NCBI RefSeq assembly: GCF_000816495.1
Contig: NZ_JXBK01000001.1
Location: 2,347,642-2,411,641 of the forward strand
Length of the DNA: 64,000 bases
Source of the DNA: Acinetobacter harbinensis
Lineage (GTDB): Bacteria; Pseudomonadota; Gammaproteobacteria; Pseudomonadales; Moraxellaceae
Direction: 5' to 3'
The notes below the pieces were generated by a model, which was not told the origin of the DNA, made no database searches, and worked only from the letters and a program-made list of their open reading frames with translations. This document shows, in pieces, positions 2,984-26,002 of the stretch. The stretch's first letter is position 1. Each line of letters opens with the position of its first letter. The translations under genes were made by a program, and so were the position numbers.

Positions 2984-4214
<1,231 letters not shown>

Positions 4215-4231
4215 ATTTATTTAGCCTCATC

Positions 4232-4262
4232 AAAAAAGGAACTCAATGGAGTTCCTTTTTTA
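4232..4262. terminator. Bidirectional terminator between dapE and chpC
   Basis: GGAACTC (4238-4244) pairs with GAGTTCC (4249-4255) around a short loop, flanked by a run of A on the left and T on the right, so it can stop both the rightward dapE transcript and the leftward pil-chp transcript. Confidence 0.85.
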
Positions 4263-7700: not shown

Positions 7701-9169
7701 TCCGCTAAATCGACTGTCGGCGCTGCGACTGTCGGTACAGTAACTGTTGTTGAAGCAGCTACAGCAGCTGTTGCGACTGCAGCTGGCACAGCCGCTACAT
7801 CAAGCTGTTGCAGGTCTTGCTGAACAAAGGCAGATAGATCATTCAATACGCCTTGAACATCGGCTGTTAAGATGACACGCTGACCTGCGGCCAAGGTATC
7901 AAATAAATGAATAAACTCTTGATGTGCCTGTCCAAACAACTCATAAGCATAGTCAATATTGAGCAGTTCTGGCTGTAAAACAAGCGCTTGATAACTTGAT
8001 TTTAATTCTGTTGTAAACTGATGAATACCAGCAGCAGCACGATTATCCGTATGATCCAATAATTGTTGAGCTTGCTCACTTAAGGCATCAATATACTGTG
8101 GATATTCAGCTTTAGCGCGTTTCTCAAACTCAAATTCAGCATCTAACAGCAAATCAATGTTTAATGCGATCAGTTTCGAAACCAGACCTTGCGGATTAAC
8201 ATCTTCATCAATGGTCGTGGCAGCAAAACCATAGTTACTCCACGCACTATTAAAGGTGGCGTAAATAACATCTAATTTTTGCGTATCGCCTTGTCTTAAG
8301 GTATGCAAATAGTCGCGCACAAACTCAGCATACTGTGTTAGCAATGCTGTTTGATTTGAGCTAGAGACAATCTCATCTTGCAGCAAGGTCTTAAACAGAT
8401 GCTCTACTTTGGTACTGGCTTCAAAAATTTGATCGATTTGCGCCATCGATGAGCTGCCGCGCAAGGTATGCAAGGCGCGAATAAGGCCGTTATAATCTTG
8501 ACCTTGTTGTTGACCCTGAGCCAAAAAGCGATCAATGGTGGCCAAATGATCTTCAGCTTCTTCAATAAAGATCGCAACCGTTTCTTGGATATAATTATTA
8601 TCTTCTTGTTCTAAAATATGGGCATCAGCTACAGGCTGATCTTGCAGCTCTAAACCAGTGATACCCTCTTCAGTGGTCAAGCAAGTTGCAAGCTGAAGTA
8701 AATCTTCTAATGCAGGTTCTAGACTTAGGTTCTGCTGGATTTGTTGTCCCAATAAAACCAAAGGACGTAAATCGATTTCAGCCAGCTGAACCGTTTTAAA
8801 AATGGGATACAATTTATATTGATAGATATTAAATACAGTTTGAGCAAAACGTTGAACCGTTGTATCTAAAGGCACTGAACCCGAGATCACACGATTTAAA
8901 GTGTCTTCAACTGCCCATGCCAACTCACCGGAAGATTTTGCCCCCACCATGCGTCCAGAGCCTTTAAGCGTATGGAAATGGCGGCGAATATTGGTCAGAA
9001 TCTCTTGGTCATGCGGAGTTTGAGACCAAGCAGGCAATAACGTACTTAATTCAACAAAGATCTCTTCTAGTTCTTCAACAAAAATTTCTAAAATTTCTGC
9101 ATCTTGATCAAGATAACTATCTTCAGGAAGCGTAGTCGTTTCAACTAAATTTTTTAATATTTCTTTCAT
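4757..9169 (-). CDS. chpA: ChpA (PilL) hybrid chemosensory histidine kinase
   Basis: A 1470-residue CheA-type kinase for type IV pilus control. Four Hpt-like domains are visible, with candidate phosphohistidines at about His66 (HFHTLKGSGRM), His234 (LHTLRGSSSM), His555 (LHTLKGGANM) and His738 (AHSLKGGARM). An Ala/Val/Thr-rich linker lies near 460-490. The kinase core follows, with an N box (LRNAIDHG), G1 (DDGKGID) and G2 (GRGVGLD), then a CheW-like regulatory domain and a C-terminal receiver with IVDDS and phosphoacceptor Asp1398 (LLDIEMPRMDG). It should phosphorylate PilG, PilH and its own receiver. Pseudomonas ChpA has more Hpt/Xpt domains and is longer. It is separated from pilJ by 173 bp containing a hairpin. 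Confidence 0.95.
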   Translation of the reverse strand: MKEILKNLVETTTLPEDSYLDQDAEILEIFVEELEEIFVELSTLLPAWSQTPHDQEILTNIRRHFHTLKGSGRMVGAKSSGELAWAVEDTLNRVISGSVPLDTTVQRFAQTVFNIYQYKLYPIFKTVQLAEIDLRPLVLLGQQIQQNLSLEPALEDLLQLATCLTTEEGITGLELQDQPVADAHILEQEDNNYIQETVAIFIEEAEDHLATIDRFLAQGQQQGQDYNGLIRALHTLRGSSSMAQIDQIFEASTKVEHLFKTLLQDEIVSSSNQTALLTQYAEFVRDYLHTLRQGDTQKLDVIYATFNSAWSNYGFAATTIDEDVNPQGLVSKLIALNIDLLLDAEFEFEKRAKAEYPQYIDALSEQAQQLLDHTDNRAAAGIHQFTTELKSSYQALVLQPELLNIDYAYELFGQAHQEFIHLFDTLAAGQRVILTADVQGVLNDLSAFVQQDLQQLDVAAVPAAVATAAVAASTTVTVPTVAAPTVDLADISQRIRADRAQMHSAEVNREFDIDLLEIFLEEAEELLVGIDQDLNTWAKDQNSTTSLNNLMRYLHTLKGGANMIQAPHIGLISHELESIYERVIRQQIKVSPQLVSIIRLVQDDVADRIQIIREQQIDYPATESIAILHDIEQIAQGRLSQSAVANLSTAIDVTIAPLEEAAVAVEEQVATQSSLAQDAIVVTAVESEEPEDSIRLIALEAFLEEAQEILDTTAALLKQWFEQRSDRSILLQLQRAAHSLKGGARMVENESVAVISYQLETIFEQFAIHHFNSNVYDLLLQSTFTWLKHAIFASDYSNFDSLRLSLESIEFVNSTAQLPNRVAEANTLAITKTFEFIEGDGTEPPAMLGEWGLSSQHDNSNEMIRISADLVEKMIDLSGENSITRSRIEMGLSQFGATLNDMELAMKRLADQLRRMDGELESQIIAKHGSEKARYADFDPLEMDQYSSINQLSKSLAESASDLVDFKTTLSEKIRDAEGLLLQQSRIQAEIQESLMRTRLVPFSRLLPRLQRIVRQTASTLNRPTELIVNNTEGELDRTILERLVTPFEHMLRNAIDHGIEDTEQRLQAKKADVGHIELNISRQGTDVLVSFSDDGKGIDAAKIKEKGLHLGLIKAEQQLEPQEILQLIFHPGFSTAKEVTQISGRGVGLDVVQSEIKALGGHVSVDSTLGQGTTFTIRVPTTVAVSDALMVKAGDQQFAISLAQIERIVRIAPAALEEYFNSKSDLFKIDNTSYKLRYLSEFVADQALPRLTNVAHSLPVLLIKGNSGQTIALLVDQLIGSRAQIVVKPIGQQFTSIGAVAGATILGDGQVCLILDGQNIARQIQTSQRIKNTTEHRDSQRQNDTRRLIMIVDDSVTVRKVTSRLLERQGYDVVTAKDGVDAMEQLENVKPDLMLLDIEMPRMDGFEVTNLVRHHDVHQDLPIIMITSRTGEKHRERAFSLGVTHYMGKPFQEAELLSNVENLLETSMG

Positions 9170-19890: not shown

Positions 19891-21261
19891 TTAGCAAAAT
19901 TTTAAAGAACCAAAACAGTTCCGATATGCCGGTGCAAGTGTCGTAATATTACCGGCTTTGGCATTGCCATTTTGTACCATATTCGACATTAAGCTGGTTA
20001 AAGAGTCATTTACATTGAGGGTAAAAGCATCTTGTAAATACATTGACCAACCTTGCCCGACCGCTTTTTCATACCCCGGATATTTAATCCCACCCGCTAA
20101 CGAGGTCAGGGCAATGCCAAATAAATTTGAATTGACATCAAGTTGATGCACATTGTTTAAATTATAAGGCAAAACATAAGCATTTAGATTATTGGTCAGT
20201 AAGGTGTTATAGGCTGCATCACTTAACGAGCCTTGTACAGGAACAGCCAGACCTAGACCCGTCAATGTTTGCTGTTTCATATAGGTCTGAATACCGCCGA
20301 CCAATAAAGGCAATAAAGCATTTGAAATACCTGCACCCGTCAATATATTACAGCCCCCAAATATAGAATCACCACACGATTGATTGACTTTCAATCCTGC
20401 CACCACATTATCCACGGTGGTTCCTAATCCTAAATTCGCAATTCCCACTTGAGTTAATCGGGTGCCATTTAAGGAGGCATTTGCATTGGAGGATGCTGCT
20501 TTGGTATCAATGGTTAAATCTCGATAGCGAACTTTAGCAAGATCTAAATTTAAAATTTCTGCATCTTTAACCCCTAAAAATGCAGAGGCTTGAGTGTAGC
20601 CAGACCCGAAAGAAGTTGAAAATTTTGACGCATCAATATCGGCACAATTTGCCGTACCTCTTTGACAGGTCACCGCAATATTTTGTTGTGCAGAAATATT
20701 CAAATTGGTTAATCCACTTAAATAACCACTAAAAGATTTCATATCCCCAATACTCATCGGGCCTTCTGCTTTTTCAGCACCTACCCGTATACCGACTACT
20801 TCTCGTGTTGCGGCTTGATCGCCGCCTTTAATCGCAAACTGAAAGAAGGGATTGGTTAAGACAAAATCTTTTAAAGCCGACTGATTGGCAATCGTATTAT
20901 TGGAATCTAATCCTGTGGGCTGGCCTGGTAGCGTTGTCGGTAAAGTAATACAGGCACCCATTGGATTGGTGACACAACCAAAAGATAGCTCAGAGATATC
21001 AATATCACACGCGCCTGCGCCATTTGCACCGCCACAGCCCAACTGTAAAGATTTAATATTGGTATTTAACGAAAGTTCTGCCTGCATGGCTAACTTAAAA
21101 AAATCTAATCCCTGCGTACTGTCTTTTTCTTTGACCAATGAGAATAGCGCTTGACCTGTTACATTGGCCAGTGAATCATCATCTAAATGCGTCATGGCAT
21201 AACTCATACTGGATACACTAAATGCAGAAGCCACTAAGCCTTTTAATAATATTTTTTTCAT
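19891..21261 (-). CDS. Exported VTGQ-motif protein, gene 4 of the operon
   Basis: A 456-residue protein with a signal peptide (MKKILLKGLVASAFSVSSMSYA), then the shared motif HLDDDSLANVTGQALFSL. The mature part has Gly/Asn/Ser-rich beta-prone repeats and several close cysteine pairs (LGCGGANGAGACDI, FGCVTNPMGACI, CQRGTANC, CGDSIFGGC); it ends NCFGSLKFC, with a terminal Cys. The C-terminal Cys is also present in the product of 23622-24299. The overall look is of an extracytoplasmic, disulfide-stabilised protein resembling the FilA/DUF6160-type pilus-associated proteins annotated in Acinetobacter (recalled, not checked). Last gene of a four-gene leftward operon, 43 bp after its neighbour. Confidence 0.75.
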   Translation of the reverse strand: MKKILLKGLVASAFSVSSMSYAMTHLDDDSLANVTGQALFSLVKEKDSTQGLDFFKLAMQAELSLNTNIKSLQLGCGGANGAGACDIDISELSFGCVTNPMGACITLPTTLPGQPTGLDSNNTIANQSALKDFVLTNPFFQFAIKGGDQAATREVVGIRVGAEKAEGPMSIGDMKSFSGYLSGLTNLNISAQQNIAVTCQRGTANCADIDASKFSTSFGSGYTQASAFLGVKDAEILNLDLAKVRYRDLTIDTKAASSNANASLNGTRLTQVGIANLGLGTTVDNVVAGLKVNQSCGDSIFGGCNILTGAGISNALLPLLVGGIQTYMKQQTLTGLGLAVPVQGSLSDAAYNTLLTNNLNAYVLPYNLNNVHQLDVNSNLFGIALTSLAGGIKYPGYEKAVGQGWSMYLQDAFTLNVNDSLTSLMSNMVQNGNAKAGNITTLAPAYRNCFGSLKFC

Positions 21262-21304
21262 TATATATCCCTATTTATAATGATCTTTTAAAGTATTGAT
21301 GGTT

Positions 21305-23590
21305 TTATCTAGGCGTAATTCCTAAAGTGCTACGCATTGCCCCACCGGTGATGGCAAAATCTGCAACTTTTTGCATATTCCCTGACGGTGACATGGCCAT
21401 TTCAGCGCGGAATACACGGCCGATATTGCCTGCATCAATTTGCGCCTTCGTTAAAAAAGTAGATGCATGATTAAAATTGACTTTATTGTCTAAAACCAAA
21501 GTATCTTTTTTGACAGAAACTCTAGACTCTAATGCCACTTGCCCTTGCAGTTTATTCAGATTGACACTAGAAGATGTTGTGCTGCCATTTTCTTTTAGAT
21601 CTTCAGTAGTCACACTGATATAACTTCCCAGCACCGCCTGATTTTTTTTCTCAGCATCGGTTAAATCAGTAAATTCAAAATTGGCTTTTAGACTTAAAAA
21701 ATTACTCTCTGGTGTCGCTGTAGATGAATTGACTCCAGGAATAATAAAGAGCTCTCCCTTACCATCCAATTTAAAAGCAATTGAACTAAGTACATCATCT
21801 TTACGGGCAAAATTATCAATCGGAACTACTTTTTGAGTACAACTGTTTACACCTGTAGGACAGTTATATAAAGAACCGGGTAATTGACCGATTGCTACTT
21901 CAGCCTTGGCAGCAAACAATAAATGGTCGGCTTTAATGTAAATACCATCATCTTCAAATCCAATCACGCCATCTGATTTTAAATAAGCATCGATATTACG
22001 TAAACCGGCATAGTAGTTGACTTCTTCGCCATGTGAACCCTGAGCACCATCCACCACAATAATTGAGGTGGTTGAAGGTGCATTGGTCTTTTTATCAATA
22101 CCGTAGCCTTCAGTTGAAAAAGCTGTGTTATAACCCAAGCCAGACTTTATCGTATTGTTATAAGTATAATTCTTAGCAAATAAAGCTATATTTGCATTTA
22201 AATTAAAAACAGGAATACCAATCCCCCATTCACCGGAAGGACTGGTTATTTCAGCAATGGAGTTATCGGCAATAAAACGCGTTTTGCGTGCAATGGCTTG
22301 AAAGTCTAAGCCACGAATGGCGATTAAGGCCACATTCTGCCCACTATTTTCAGGGGTCAGGTTGTAGCTTAAATAATTATTTCCGGCCCCGAGCACTTTT
22401 TTAATATTGTCATTAATAATGAAACCTAAACTCTTAATTTGTGCTGTATTAATATAAATATCACCAAAATCAATATAGGCATTGCGTCTATTTAAATCTG
22501 AAACTGAAGTCGAATTACGAATCGTTAATGGCGATAAATTTGAAAACTCCAGTGCATAACTACCATGTCCGGTATGCCCAATTTCTAAAGTGGTCGGCGT
22601 ATCTGTGGCTGTTAATAATGAATTACCAGCTCGTGTAAAATCAGCAGAGAGCCCCATATGTAAGCCACCTGCACCTGCAAATTCATAGCCTGTAGCGGTC
22701 TTGGTGGTTTCGATTAAGTCGGGTGCTGTGCGGCTTACCGAGTTAAATTCTGCCAGTCCATTTTGGTTGGCATTTAAAAAAACTTTGCCATTGGTGACTG
22801 CACCAGAGGCGCCCATACGAATTAAGTTTTTCTGATTACCAGCATTCGCTCCATAACGTAAATCAATATTGATCGCTGGATTTTTTGCGCCACTGCGACT
22901 CGGATCGACATCGGTTAAATCGGATACTTTGTGTAAATTGATTAGATGATCTGTTTGACCATCTTTACTTTTAGTGCTTAATACCATCCCCTCACTGGAG
23001 TCTAAATACAAATAACCATCTAAAGAAAAGTTAAAATTAAAATCTTTTAAGGTTAAAAATTTTCCGTTAAGCCCATAGCCTAAACTGGCATTTTGTAACT
23101 GAAAATCTAAATGGGCTTTTTCATCACGATTGAACAAGCCCGCAGAGGTTTGCAGAAAAATGTTTAATGGCGATAAAGTTGAAAGACTTAAAGTACCTAA
23201 ATTTTGTGAAGGCGTCGTACAGTCTGCGGAAGTACACAGGAGCATTAACTTTTCAATGGTGGCTTCAAAAGGAGAGATGCTGGCTTGAATTTTCACTCCC
23301 GCACTTTGATCGGTTTTGCCTACATCAAAATCAAGCGTACTTTTAATGGTGCTTAGATTTAAACCTTTCACCTCAACGTTATGTAGTCCTAACTTCATAC
23401 TGCCTGTATTGCTGTAATCTATCCAATTGGCCTGATCAATGGTGATTTTAGAGGTTTCGTAAGCAATGGATATTCCATCTTGACCAGTCACCGCACCTAA
23501 TGAAGAATCATTGAGCTGCTCTAAGGCATGGCTATGTTGTGCTAAAAAAATACAGACCGTTAGTAATTTTAATTTCGTTATTTTTTTCAT
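21305..23590 (-). CDS. Exported VTGQ-motif protein, gene 3 of the operon
   Basis: A 761-residue protein with signal peptide MKKITKLKLLTVCIFLAQHSHA, then QLNDSSLGAVTGQDGISI, the longest member of the set. After the motif a pattern of short beta segments ending in Gly-Leu or Leu-Asn (LGLHNVEVKGLNLSTIKS, LSTLSPLNIFL, LEFSNLSPLTI) suggests a beta-helix or beta-sandwich surface protein. Two close Cys pairs are seen (LLCTSADC, YNCPTGVNSC). The VTGQDGISI form is the most canonical of the four. Function unknown; a surface or pilus-associated role is inferred from the motif family. Confidence 0.75.
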   Translation of the reverse strand: MKKITKLKLLTVCIFLAQHSHALEQLNDSSLGAVTGQDGISIAYETSKITIDQANWIDYSNTGSMKLGLHNVEVKGLNLSTIKSTLDFDVGKTDQSAGVKIQASISPFEATIEKLMLLCTSADCTTPSQNLGTLSLSTLSPLNIFLQTSAGLFNRDEKAHLDFQLQNASLGYGLNGKFLTLKDFNFNFSLDGYLYLDSSEGMVLSTKSKDGQTDHLINLHKVSDLTDVDPSRSGAKNPAINIDLRYGANAGNQKNLIRMGASGAVTNGKVFLNANQNGLAEFNSVSRTAPDLIETTKTATGYEFAGAGGLHMGLSADFTRAGNSLLTATDTPTTLEIGHTGHGSYALEFSNLSPLTIRNSTSVSDLNRRNAYIDFGDIYINTAQIKSLGFIINDNIKKVLGAGNNYLSYNLTPENSGQNVALIAIRGLDFQAIARKTRFIADNSIAEITSPSGEWGIGIPVFNLNANIALFAKNYTYNNTIKSGLGYNTAFSTEGYGIDKKTNAPSTTSIIVVDGAQGSHGEEVNYYAGLRNIDAYLKSDGVIGFEDDGIYIKADHLLFAAKAEVAIGQLPGSLYNCPTGVNSCTQKVVPIDNFARKDDVLSSIAFKLDGKGELFIIPGVNSSTATPESNFLSLKANFEFTDLTDAEKKNQAVLGSYISVTTEDLKENGSTTSSSVNLNKLQGQVALESRVSVKKDTLVLDNKVNFNHASTFLTKAQIDAGNIGRVFRAEMAMSPSGNMQKVADFAITGGAMRSTLGITPR

Positions 23591-23621
23591 TCTAACCTCC
23601 TTGTTTTTTCGAATAATTTAT

Positions 23622-24299
23622 TTAGCAACGACTGCCCGCTGTTCCACTACAGTTATAGCTAAAAATTTTCAAATTACCCGACATATGCAAGTTGCCATGT
23701 ACATTAACCCCCATGAACCCCGTTTCAGCACCTTGATCAAAAGCAGGAACAACTTTATTGTTATCGTAAGTTGTATAGGTACTTTTATTTAAATAACCTT
23801 CTTCGGCATTACTCTCAACAGCTAAACTTGAAAAACCTAAATTTCTTATTTTTAAAGGTTTATTATCATAAAAAGTCAAATTTATCGCAGTTTGAGGATT
23901 GCCATCTTTGTTGATGATCGTTGAACCATCTAAAGAAAACTTATCGATTTGAATCGTGCCTTGAATTTGCTTAAACACCAACCACTTTTTATTGTCTATA
24001 TTGCCTACTTTTTCAACATGATTATTCGGAGAAAATGCAAACCGGCACAGTACATTGGCAACACAATCATATTGATAATAGGCTCCGGAAGGATTACCCG
24101 CATTAATCAGCGTCAGATCTGAAATCTGTTTTTTACTCATATCATTGGCGTATTGATGATTTAAAGATAATGTCCAACTCAGATCGACGCCCCCTTGTCC
24201 GGTGACATCTAGCAGCTGAGCATTATCCAGATTCATTAATTCTGCATGAACTGTACCACTGAGCAATAAAACCATCGCAATAGATATTTTATTTAACAT
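23622..24299 (-). CDS. Exported VTGQ-motif protein, gene 2 of the operon (short)
   Basis: A 225-residue protein with signal peptide MLNKISIAMVLLLSGTVHA, then NLDNAQLLDVTGQGGVDL. It is the shortest of the four, with a Cys pair YDCVANVLC and a C-terminal NCSGTAGSRC, so it ends in Cys like the product of 19891-21261. Beta-prone segments (GTIQIDKFSLDGSTI, PLKIRNLGFSSLAV) resemble those in the 761-residue member. It starts 9 bp after the stop of gene 1. Confidence 0.72.
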   Translation of the reverse strand: MLNKISIAMVLLLSGTVHAELMNLDNAQLLDVTGQGGVDLSWTLSLNHQYANDMSKKQISDLTLINAGNPSGAYYQYDCVANVLCRFAFSPNNHVEKVGNIDNKKWLVFKQIQGTIQIDKFSLDGSTIINKDGNPQTAINLTFYDNKPLKIRNLGFSSLAVESNAEEGYLNKSTYTTYDNNKVVPAFDQGAETGFMGVNVHGNLHMSGNLKIFSYNCSGTAGSRC

Positions 24300-24308
24300 T
24301 TTACATCC

Positions 24309-25763
24309 CTATAAACCGGTAGTTTTAAACTTAAGGTGCTGAATTAAAACACCATCAATTGCTGCAGAGCCTAAGTTAACCGCTGTTCCTGCTCCATTTT
24401 TAAACATCACACCTGTGGCATTTACATCCCTATTGGCTTTTAATAAGTTACTGGTTGGATCGCGTGTCACACTGCCAATAGAAATACTGCTGTGTGTGGC
24501 ATTGTTGCCTTGGTAGGTAATGGTATTTCCAGATGAGAGCAGCGAAGAACCATTAAATCCACAAGTATAGACATTGCAGGTCGAACCTTGATAGGGACTA
24601 TTGGCAGATAAATTGCTATAAGGTGCTGTATAATCGGTATAAATTTTATTATAAATATTTGCCACATTCGGTATGCGCGTAATCTCAAGAATAATATTAT
24701 TACCTTCAGAGCCTAAAATAAAAGGCTGATGAATACTTCCCAACACCAAATTAATATTGGGACTATATAAATATAAACCTTCTTGATTATTAAATAACGG
24801 CGCTTCCGAATTTTGTTTTAATGCCGGAGTAGAATAATTTCCATCATTTAAAGTGGCTGTACTTAATCGAATGGCTTTGCTGTTTAAATTACTATCTGTT
24901 GATTTTAAGTTTTCAGGATTATCATTGGTATTTAAACGTAAAATACTGGCCATGCCTAAAGTTTGATTATATTGCGGTGTAGTGGAGGACATGGTTTGGA
25001 AAAGTTTGACTTGTGATCCATTTAAACTCAGTCCATTGGCTACGAATTGTAGCCTCAAACGTTGGTTTTTATCTAAATCAACATCATTGGTCGGATCAGT
25101 AGTCATTGGTTTAGCCAATGGTGCACCTGTAATTGGATTAACACTATGACTGGAATTCCAGCTCCGTGAGAAAGCATCCAACCAAAAGCCCAACTTAATA
25201 TTATTATCACTTTCATCGGCACTTACTTTCGCTAAAGGCGCCTCTAAAGCCAAATAACTAATATCCCCTGCGGTATTGGTACTAGAAAATTGTTGAATAT
25301 TGTTGGCAATACCTGCTCGAAATAACCAAGGGTTAATTGCACTCCCCCAATCAAATCCATTATTACTAAATCGTTGATTTAAATTATTATTGCTGGCCGA
25401 TAAAGCCAAACCATAAATAAAAATATCTGCTTTGGTTCTTTTATTGGCAGCATCAGCCGCACTTATCTTAAGATTGGCATAATTTTCCCCCGTAGGAATA
25501 ATTCGAATAAAGCCTGTGTCATATTTTTCTGGATTAATCAGACCGACTTGGTTATAGCTTGAGGCACTGGACAGATCATTTGCGGCCTGAAAAACCATTT
25601 TAAAGTTTTCAGGGAACAGTGCCATACCCTCACCTGTGGTTTGTGCAAGATGATCATCTGACAAAGATTCAAGCGCATGAACTGATTGGCTAACCAGAAG
25701 AACAGCAATTACACTTGCCAAACAGAATTTTTTAAATCCTGTACTGCAACGTTGAGTCATCAC
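24309..25763 (-). CDS. Exported VTGQ-motif protein, gene 1 of the operon
   Basis: A 484-residue protein with a signal peptide ending QSVHA, then SLSDDHLAQTTGEGMALF, the most diverged form of the motif (TTGE). A distinctive early block, FPENFKMVFQAAND, is followed by Asn/Ser-rich, beta-prone sequence and one Cys pair (STCNVYTC). No membrane segment is seen at the C-terminus. The AAGGAAAG upstream supports the tandem ATG start. It heads the operon, and the 239 bp to the left-facing dcd terminator hold its promoter. Confidence 0.72.
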   Translation of the reverse strand: MMTQRCSTGFKKFCLASVIAVLLVSQSVHALESLSDDHLAQTTGEGMALFPENFKMVFQAANDLSSASSYNQVGLINPEKYDTGFIRIIPTGENYANLKISAADAANKRTKADIFIYGLALSASNNNLNQRFSNNGFDWGSAINPWLFRAGIANNIQQFSSTNTAGDISYLALEAPLAKVSADESDNNIKLGFWLDAFSRSWNSSHSVNPITGAPLAKPMTTDPTNDVDLDKNQRLRLQFVANGLSLNGSQVKLFQTMSSTTPQYNQTLGMASILRLNTNDNPENLKSTDSNLNSKAIRLSTATLNDGNYSTPALKQNSEAPLFNNQEGLYLYSPNINLVLGSIHQPFILGSEGNNIILEITRIPNVANIYNKIYTDYTAPYSNLSANSPYQGSTCNVYTCGFNGSSLLSSGNTITYQGNNATHSSISIGSVTRDPTSNLLKANRDVNATGVMFKNGAGTAVNLGSAAIDGVLIQHLKFKTTGL

Positions 25764-25950: not shown

Positions 25951-25984
25951 CGCACAAAAAACAAACGGACCCAAATGGTCCGCT
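25951..25984 (-). terminator. Terminator of dcd
   Basis: On the minus strand CGGACC (25982-25977) pairs with GGTCCG (25971-25966) and is followed by TTTGTTTTTTG. It lies just beyond the dcd stop. Confidence 0.8.
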
Positions 25985-26002
25985 TGTCGAATTATTTATA
26001 TT

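Follow-up and report, generated by a model that had tools for sequence, protein, structure and literature searches.

Which component of the cell reads a short motif that several otherwise unlike exported proteins carry directly behind their export signals? The question is raised by a four-gene operon in a 64,000-nucleotide stretch of Acinetobacter harbinensis DNA (contig NZ_JXBK01000001.1; the whole stretch is called the window). We conclude that the four proteins are probably remote substrates of a Fil/Fap-type system and that the motif is probably a non-canonical, post-Sec double-glycine-type leader recognized by periplasmic C39 peptidases. The earlier note on this DNA had described four consecutive leftward genes encoding signal peptides followed by a shared motif, and all four open reading frames (ORFs) are present exactly where that note placed them. 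The genes and their leaders are as follows.

24309 to 25763, minus strand: gene 1, a 484-residue exported protein with leader; GTG start with ATG as second codon; conserved C-terminus ...IQHLKFKTTGL; orthologue in 39/39 loci
25629 to 25664, minus strand: leader of gene 1, LSDDHLAQTTGE, residues 34-45, score 9; T43, G44 and E45 invariant in 23 aligned sequences
23622 to 24299, minus strand: gene 2, a 225-residue exported protein with leader and C-terminal Cys; PF19657 match at E 3.0e-7; orthologue in 39/39 loci
24195 to 24230, minus strand: leader of gene 2, LDNAQLLDVTGQ, residues 24-35, score 11
21305 to 23590, minus strand: gene 3, a 761-residue exported all-beta protein with leader; PF19657 match at E 6.2e-13
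23480 to 23515, minus strand: leader of gene 3, LNDSSLGAVTGQ, residues 26-37, score 10; among 25 aligned sequences G36 never varies and Q37 hardly does
19891 to 21261, minus strand: gene 4, a 456-residue exported protein with leader; orthologue in 38/39 loci
21151 to 21186, minus strand: leader of gene 4, LDDDSLANVTGQ, residues 26-37, score 10

The motif, L-x4-L-x2-[VT]-T-G-[QE], stands directly behind a signal-peptide-like hydrophobic N-terminus in each of the four proteins. Exactly four of the 57 signal-like ORFs in the window reach a leader score of at least 8, and they are these four; 0.12 were expected when the residues behind the signal were shuffled, a figure that is not blind, since these proteins and their relatives had served to shape the rule. 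The FilA protein of this genome likewise has a signal peptide and a leader, MDDASLGATTGQ. A section of PMC11784438 describes FilA of Acinetobacter sp. Tol 5 as the subunit of the Fil pilus, and a section of PMC3498257 has it that FilA was identified by Edman degradation. Among the four proteins and FilA the motif is 53% identical over 12 positions, whereas none of the 10 cargo pairs behind it is related when local alignments are compared with shuffles. A motif common to all in front of unrelated cargo behaves as a leader.

Alignment on G-[QE] shows conservation at L-12, L-7, V/T-4 and G-2. L-12 and L-7 occur in all four window proteins, three of them have V and the other T at -4, and all four have G at -2 and Q or E at -1. 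The earlier note had remarked on a resemblance to double-glycine leaders. This resemblance is now strongly supported, with a C39 peptidase, FilB, encoded in a different operon of the genome. The leaders of class II bacteriocins and of ribosomally synthesized and post-translationally modified peptides, which go with the C39 domains of PCAT/AMS ABC transporters, have the same L-12, L-7, V/T-4 and G-2 spacing, and the C39 peptidase domain is related. As set out in part of eLife 42305, V-4, L-7 and L-12 sit in a hydrophobic groove of the peptidase in a solved C39-leader complex, and the recognition consensus of ComA is L-12, E-8 and L-7. E-8 is absent from the four window proteins but common in orthologues of the 225- and 456-residue proteins. 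The window proteins differ from the double-glycine systems in that their leader comes after a Sec-type signal peptide, their candidate peptidase is a free-standing protein, the cargo reaches 724 residues and a single peptidase is paired with several unlinked candidate substrates. Above all, the leader ends in Gly-Gln or Gly-Glu instead of the Gly-Gly, Gly-Ala or Gly-Ser by which double-glycine leaders are defined.

Matches to known families lead to the Fil system. PF19657 (DUF6160) E-values for the four proteins are 6.2e-13, 3.0e-7, 2.6e-4 and 0.11; the 761- and 225-residue proteins score 49.3 and 31.1 bits, over the gathering cut-off of 27, and the 456- and 484-residue proteins fall under it at 21.6 and 13.1 bits. 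Three of the four also match the pilus_FilA model NF050077, in the N-terminus only and far below its curated cut-off of 220 bits (best 42.8 bits; the FilA of this genome scores 292). These matches bear out the FilA/DUF6160 link that the earlier note had named. The window proteins share the signal peptide and leader of FilA of the Acinetobacter fil operon (NCBIfam NF050077-NF050081 and NF033645; Pfam DUF6160) and differ from FilA in their unrelated cargo and separate operon. In Pfam roughly the first 96 residues form a single family, DUF6160, as would be expected if the motif were the first part of a folded domain of homologous surface proteins with no processing role. That explanation has very little probability, given that the proteins are unlike behind the motif and that the leader has a predicted local distance difference test score (pLDDT) under 50 in both AlphaFold models made, those of the 484- and 761-residue proteins. 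The same motif also heads many small, mostly unlike proteins in two distant genomes described below.

PF03412 matches a single protein of the genome, FilB, whose gene belongs to a complete fil operon some 1.4 Mb away from the window. This protein matches the FapD model NF058616 at E 3.9e-30 (104.8 bits, under the equivalog cut-off of 330), and FilC matches the FapF model NF058560 at E 1.3e-18 (67 bits, under the equivalog cut-off of 700). By sequence, FilB and FilC are related to FapD and FapF but are not FapD and FapF themselves. The catalytic residues Q66, C72, H157 and D173 are invariant in all 19 free-standing C39s compared (FilB and 18 others). Inspection by eye of the fil locus (L010, positions 7972-8170, C1 of this genome) revealed a hairpin and, behind it, a T run in the interval from filA to filB, which could mean that FilA is made in excess over the rest of the fil operon.

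The operon and FilB are found together across the genus. FilB is present in 107 of 129 Acinetobacter genomes and the 761-residue protein in 110; 107 genomes have both, three have the protein alone, none has FilB alone and 19 have neither, so the two agree in 126 of the 129. Two of the 22 FilB-less genomes (G103 and G106) were assigned by exclusion, and a few absences may be gaps, because among the 19 genomes with neither gene G030 is 65% and G032 90% complete and G026 has 9% contamination. DUF6160 has no match at E 0.01 in 19 of the 22 FilB-less genomes. PF03412 matches do occur in 12 of the 22, as long frames of 447-726 residues in five and short, weak-scoring ones of 174-222 residues in seven. 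Of the loci that lack the operon, 17 were long enough to reveal an empty site, and in 13 of them no more than about 200 bases separate proS from dcd (exceptions L078, L088, L089 and L092).

A ProS tree of 100 of the 129 genomes (all 22 without FilB, that of the window and 77 of the other 106) has eight state changes for the 761-residue protein and 10 for FilB. Independent pairs on this tree never go opposite ways, and the sign test on them is only borderline (p 0.03-0.13) because losses are few. A likelihood test of correlated evolution gave a likelihood ratio of 52.8 and p 9e-11, with almost no loss of the 761-residue protein while FilB is present, although this test can overstate co-occurrence when losses are few. 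Three genomes, G012, G074 and G095, keep the operon and its leaders without FilB. G012 and G074 have one short, weak PF03412 match each; G095 has none, and keeps a FilA-like gene with an intact leader beside the four-gene operon (L100, positions 3247-4251). G012 groups with G001 and G089, which have neither gene (support 93, under the star limit), as if fil had been lost before the operon. Environment-linked loss could give the same co-occurrence if the four proteins merely shared a niche with Fil fibers and were lost together with them, neither processed nor exported by Fil, the motif going back to an ancestor that they have in common with FilA. The three genomes that keep the operon fit such a history, but conservation of the leader alone in front of unrelated cargo speaks against it, as does the occurrence of such leaders next to the C39 peptidases of other systems, and we give it very little probability.

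The analysis was carried beyond the genus, to 369 genomes of Gammaproteobacteria. DUF6160 was matched at E 1e-4 in six of them (five over the cut-off), and each of the six also encodes a free-standing FapD-like C39 (E at most 5e-30), against a background of 45 in 369 by hand count. The C39 lies within about 2 kb of the DUF6160 genes in two (G135 and G338). Genomes G266 and G379 have 11 and 13 DUF6160 matches on 9 and 8 contigs and one FapD-like C39 match each. The 18 of these matches that were read (10 and 8; L179-L204) are small exported proteins with a GQ leader, scattered and with mostly unrelated cargo: leader identity is 57% in G266, where 2 of 45 cargo pairs are related, and 53% in G379, where 1 of 28 is (3 of 73 in total).

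The neighborhoods of 40 free-standing C39 genes were scanned for leaders; these regions were chosen from about 59 free-standing C39 rows (hand count) as those with the best scores plus the DUF6160 genomes. A first rule, which was too strict, gave two hits, and 12 with any residue allowed at -1. A looser score rule, set before the Fap loci were seen, gave 26 hits at a score of at least 8 against 0.9 expected, at all distances. The final scan found 38 leader-bearing exported ORFs within 4 kb of the C39 (1.3 expected) and four beyond (1.0 expected); it was not blind, since L or M at -4 and R or K at -1 had been added after FapE was seen. A scored leader lies near the C39 in 28 of the 40 loci, in 25 of the 34 left without the DUF6160 genomes, and in 35 of 40 when leaders found by eye are added. 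Among the 12 loci without a scored near hit, leaders were found by eye or with a looser pattern in L238, L239, L257, L258, L261, L272 and L244; by the same means none was seen near the C39 in L256, L270 and L274. The other two, L264 and L269, come from genomes whose DUF6160 genes are not at the C39 locus. The near scored hit of L247 is a doubtful small ORF, yet a leader-bearing protein does adjoin its C39. Two further observations concern the cargo at these loci. In L266, L268, L271 and L273 the free-standing C39s of another group have between one and four small exported proteins next to them, whose leaders end in AG (for example LSDADMDGVTAG), and long Asn/Ser/Ala-rich exported proteins stand beside C39s of a group with mostly RGG leaders in L256, L257, L258 and L261.

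The last two residues of the leader cluster by C39 clade. A first tree combined FilB with two Pseudomonadaceae loci and 33 of the 40 regions; it lacked L244, L247, L256, L258, L263, L270 and L274 and required three changes, the minimum. Addition of L244, L258 and L263 gave a second tree of 39 with four changes, where the minimum is 3 and the shuffled mean 19.4; the leader labels on it were assigned by us from neighboring genes, and for L264 and L269 from elsewhere in the genome. FilB and four other C39s with GQ leaders form one clade (99% support in the Shimodaira-Hasegawa-like approximate likelihood ratio test).

The Fap amyloid system of Pseudomonas (FapA-F) resembles the Fil system in having a C39 peptidase (FapD, as FilB) and a FapF pore protein (FilC being FapF-like), and FapE has a leader of the same kind. 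L235-L248 are the 14 loci that score highest against FapD (E at most 2.5e-58), and each of them encodes a leader-bearing protein right next to the C39. Thirteen of these proteins were compared with the FapE model, and all gave matches under the cut-off; the protein of L247 is outside the 13. In FapE loci of Pseudomonadales the leader pattern occurs in 9 of 11, including all six over the FapE cut-off, and the two misses (L282 and L285) belong to one genome. The FapE form is L-x-D-x-E-[LM]-x-x-x-R-G-[RK], so that it ends in RGR or RGK where the Fil-type leader ends in GQ or GE. The systems differ further in that the candidate substrates of the window are encoded in a separate operon and in that neither FilA-F nor the four window proteins gave a FapB or FapC family match.

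Sections of PMC5557850 place FapD in the periplasm, report that a FapD Cys mutant abolishes FapC secretion, and give FapE as the only Fap protein with complete N-terminal processing by mass spectrometry, with no peptides from roughly the first 70 residues; its authors also considered that the FapF linker may be partly processed. The predicted FapE cut lies near residue 40 (hand count on L278), which fits the gap of about 70 residues only in part. The target of FapD, which Pseudomonas requires to secrete its amyloid, was stated as not determined in sections of reports from 2017 and 2018 (PMC5557850 and PMC6173800), the former of which also suggests that the recognition sequence of FapD may be an alternative one and suspects FapE as a substrate. 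A wider claim can be framed from these data, and we regard it as evenly balanced between right and wrong: Gammaproteobacteria may have a general two-signal route in which a double-glycine-like leader stands behind a Sec signal and is read by a free-standing periplasmic C39 (FilB, FapD or a relative); one peptidase may serve many unlinked and unrelated cargoes, here FilA and the four window proteins and likewise those of G266 and G379; and FapE may be the FapD substrate, cut at its leader.

Several points, together with the limits of the co-occurrence tests and the three genomes that keep the operon without FilB, weigh against the four proteins being substrates of FilB. The cleavage step itself is inferred. 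The N-terminus of FilB is hydrophobic without being a classical signal peptide, and for this reason its periplasmic location is presumptive. The residue at -1 is Q or E, against G, A or S in characterized double-glycine leaders, and no bacteriocin-leader hidden Markov model was matched when five leader pieces were searched against NCBIfam and Pfam (only FilA/DUF6160 matches were returned), a negative that is weak evidence, since searches with such short pieces lack power. In 5 of the 40 loci the neighborhood of the C39 showed no leader protein, and L258, with an RGQ leader, falls in the GG clade. Much of the agreement between leader type and clade could be co-inheritance of neighboring genes, an explanation that could not extend to scattered substrates. 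FilB was the one fil gene followed across genomes as co-loss marker, and co-loss therefore does not single out the peptidase.

This last point and the residue at -1 would also suit a motif that is not cut and serves as a tag by which the Fil export machinery, perhaps the FilC pore or a chaperone, docks or targets the proteins, with FilB as its reader or acting on something else; sections of PMC8277102 and PMC5557850 describe some C39-like domains that lack proteolytic activity and yet help to handle substrates. Such a tag is unlikely, since the catalytic residues are invariant in FilB-like and FapD-like enzymes, secretion of FapC is lost in the FapD Cys mutant cited above, the leader spacing fits C39 recognition and leader type clusters by C39 clade.

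If the four proteins are substrates of FilB, as we favor, the pathway can be laid out in order. Sec would export them, as the signal peptides suggest, and signal peptidase would remove the signal, exposing the leader. FilB would then bind the leader through L-12, L-7, V/T-4 and G-2, a step supported by the spacing, the co-occurrence and the C39-wide pattern, and would cut behind G-[QE], this exact bond being a prediction; for the FilA of this genome the predicted mature start is DGINIG, behind GQ. The trimmed proteins would be handled by the Fil machinery, with the FapF-like FilC as a putative export route, and may be assembled with Fil fibers. Elsewhere, free-standing C39s would read post-Sec leaders of their own type: GQ or GE for FilB-like enzymes, RG[RK] for FapD on FapE, and GG and xAG for two other groups.

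The operon lies between proS and dcd on the chromosome (2.9 Mb in this genome), and all 39 relatives of the locus that were fetched are from Acinetobacter. Its intergenic gaps are 9, 31 and 43 bases. One further feature stands upstream of it.

25960 to 25988, minus strand: terminator-like hairpin between dcd and the operon; 12 pairs, six of them G-C, then a T run

The hairpin would make the operon a separate unit; it is a pattern match only, of a kind found at eight sites against 5.2 in shuffles. The arrangement holds among homologues: the first three genes are in order in all 39 loci and the fourth in 38, displaced by about 2 kb in two of them (L044 and L049). A. baylyi is among the species with the operon (locus L042). 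The 761-residue protein has a best-segment identity of 34 to 82% across related loci. Among the orthologues of gene 1 (L011-L049), length varies from 453 to 759 residues between species while the C-terminus is nearly unchanged. In 27 sequences of the gene 4 product the N-terminal part and the Cys tail are conserved and the middle is variable; in many species good conservation is confined to the Cys tail and roughly the first 180 residues. The translations contain the close Cys pairs that the earlier note reported, as well as its two tails that end in Cys, NCSGTAGSRC and NCFGSLKFC.

The 484-residue protein gave a poor AlphaFold model (pLDDT 64.7) and the 761-residue protein a good one (pLDDT 84.5, predicted template modeling score 0.84), all beta with long strands and with residues 16-37, which include the leader, under pLDDT 50. 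Foldseek found no match to the latter model at E 0.001 or better (best 5.4e-3). Outer-membrane barrels were considered as homologues and not trusted, since the best structural alignments have Z up to 9.8 but a root mean square deviation of 9.5. The protein may be a membrane barrel, a groove or another beta fold. The earlier note was right about the motif and the FilA/DUF6160 link, and right in spirit about the double-glycine resemblance; its proposal of one surface structure gained no support from the cargoes, which are unrelated, or from the 761-residue protein, which has no clear structural relative. A surface location of the four proteins is suggested only by the link to Fil and Fap.

A literature search over titles and abstract openings, which did not cover preprints, gave no description of this leader for Fil or Fap; one may be in print elsewhere. 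The leader yields predictions of the FapD substrate (FapE), of the residues by which it is recognized and of where it is cut, and so the question of the FapD substrate becomes directly testable. The same prediction extends to the Fil system of Acinetobacter and to two further C39 groups. DUF6160 proteins, which are encoded far from the machinery, would become candidate substrates that can be listed by sequence.

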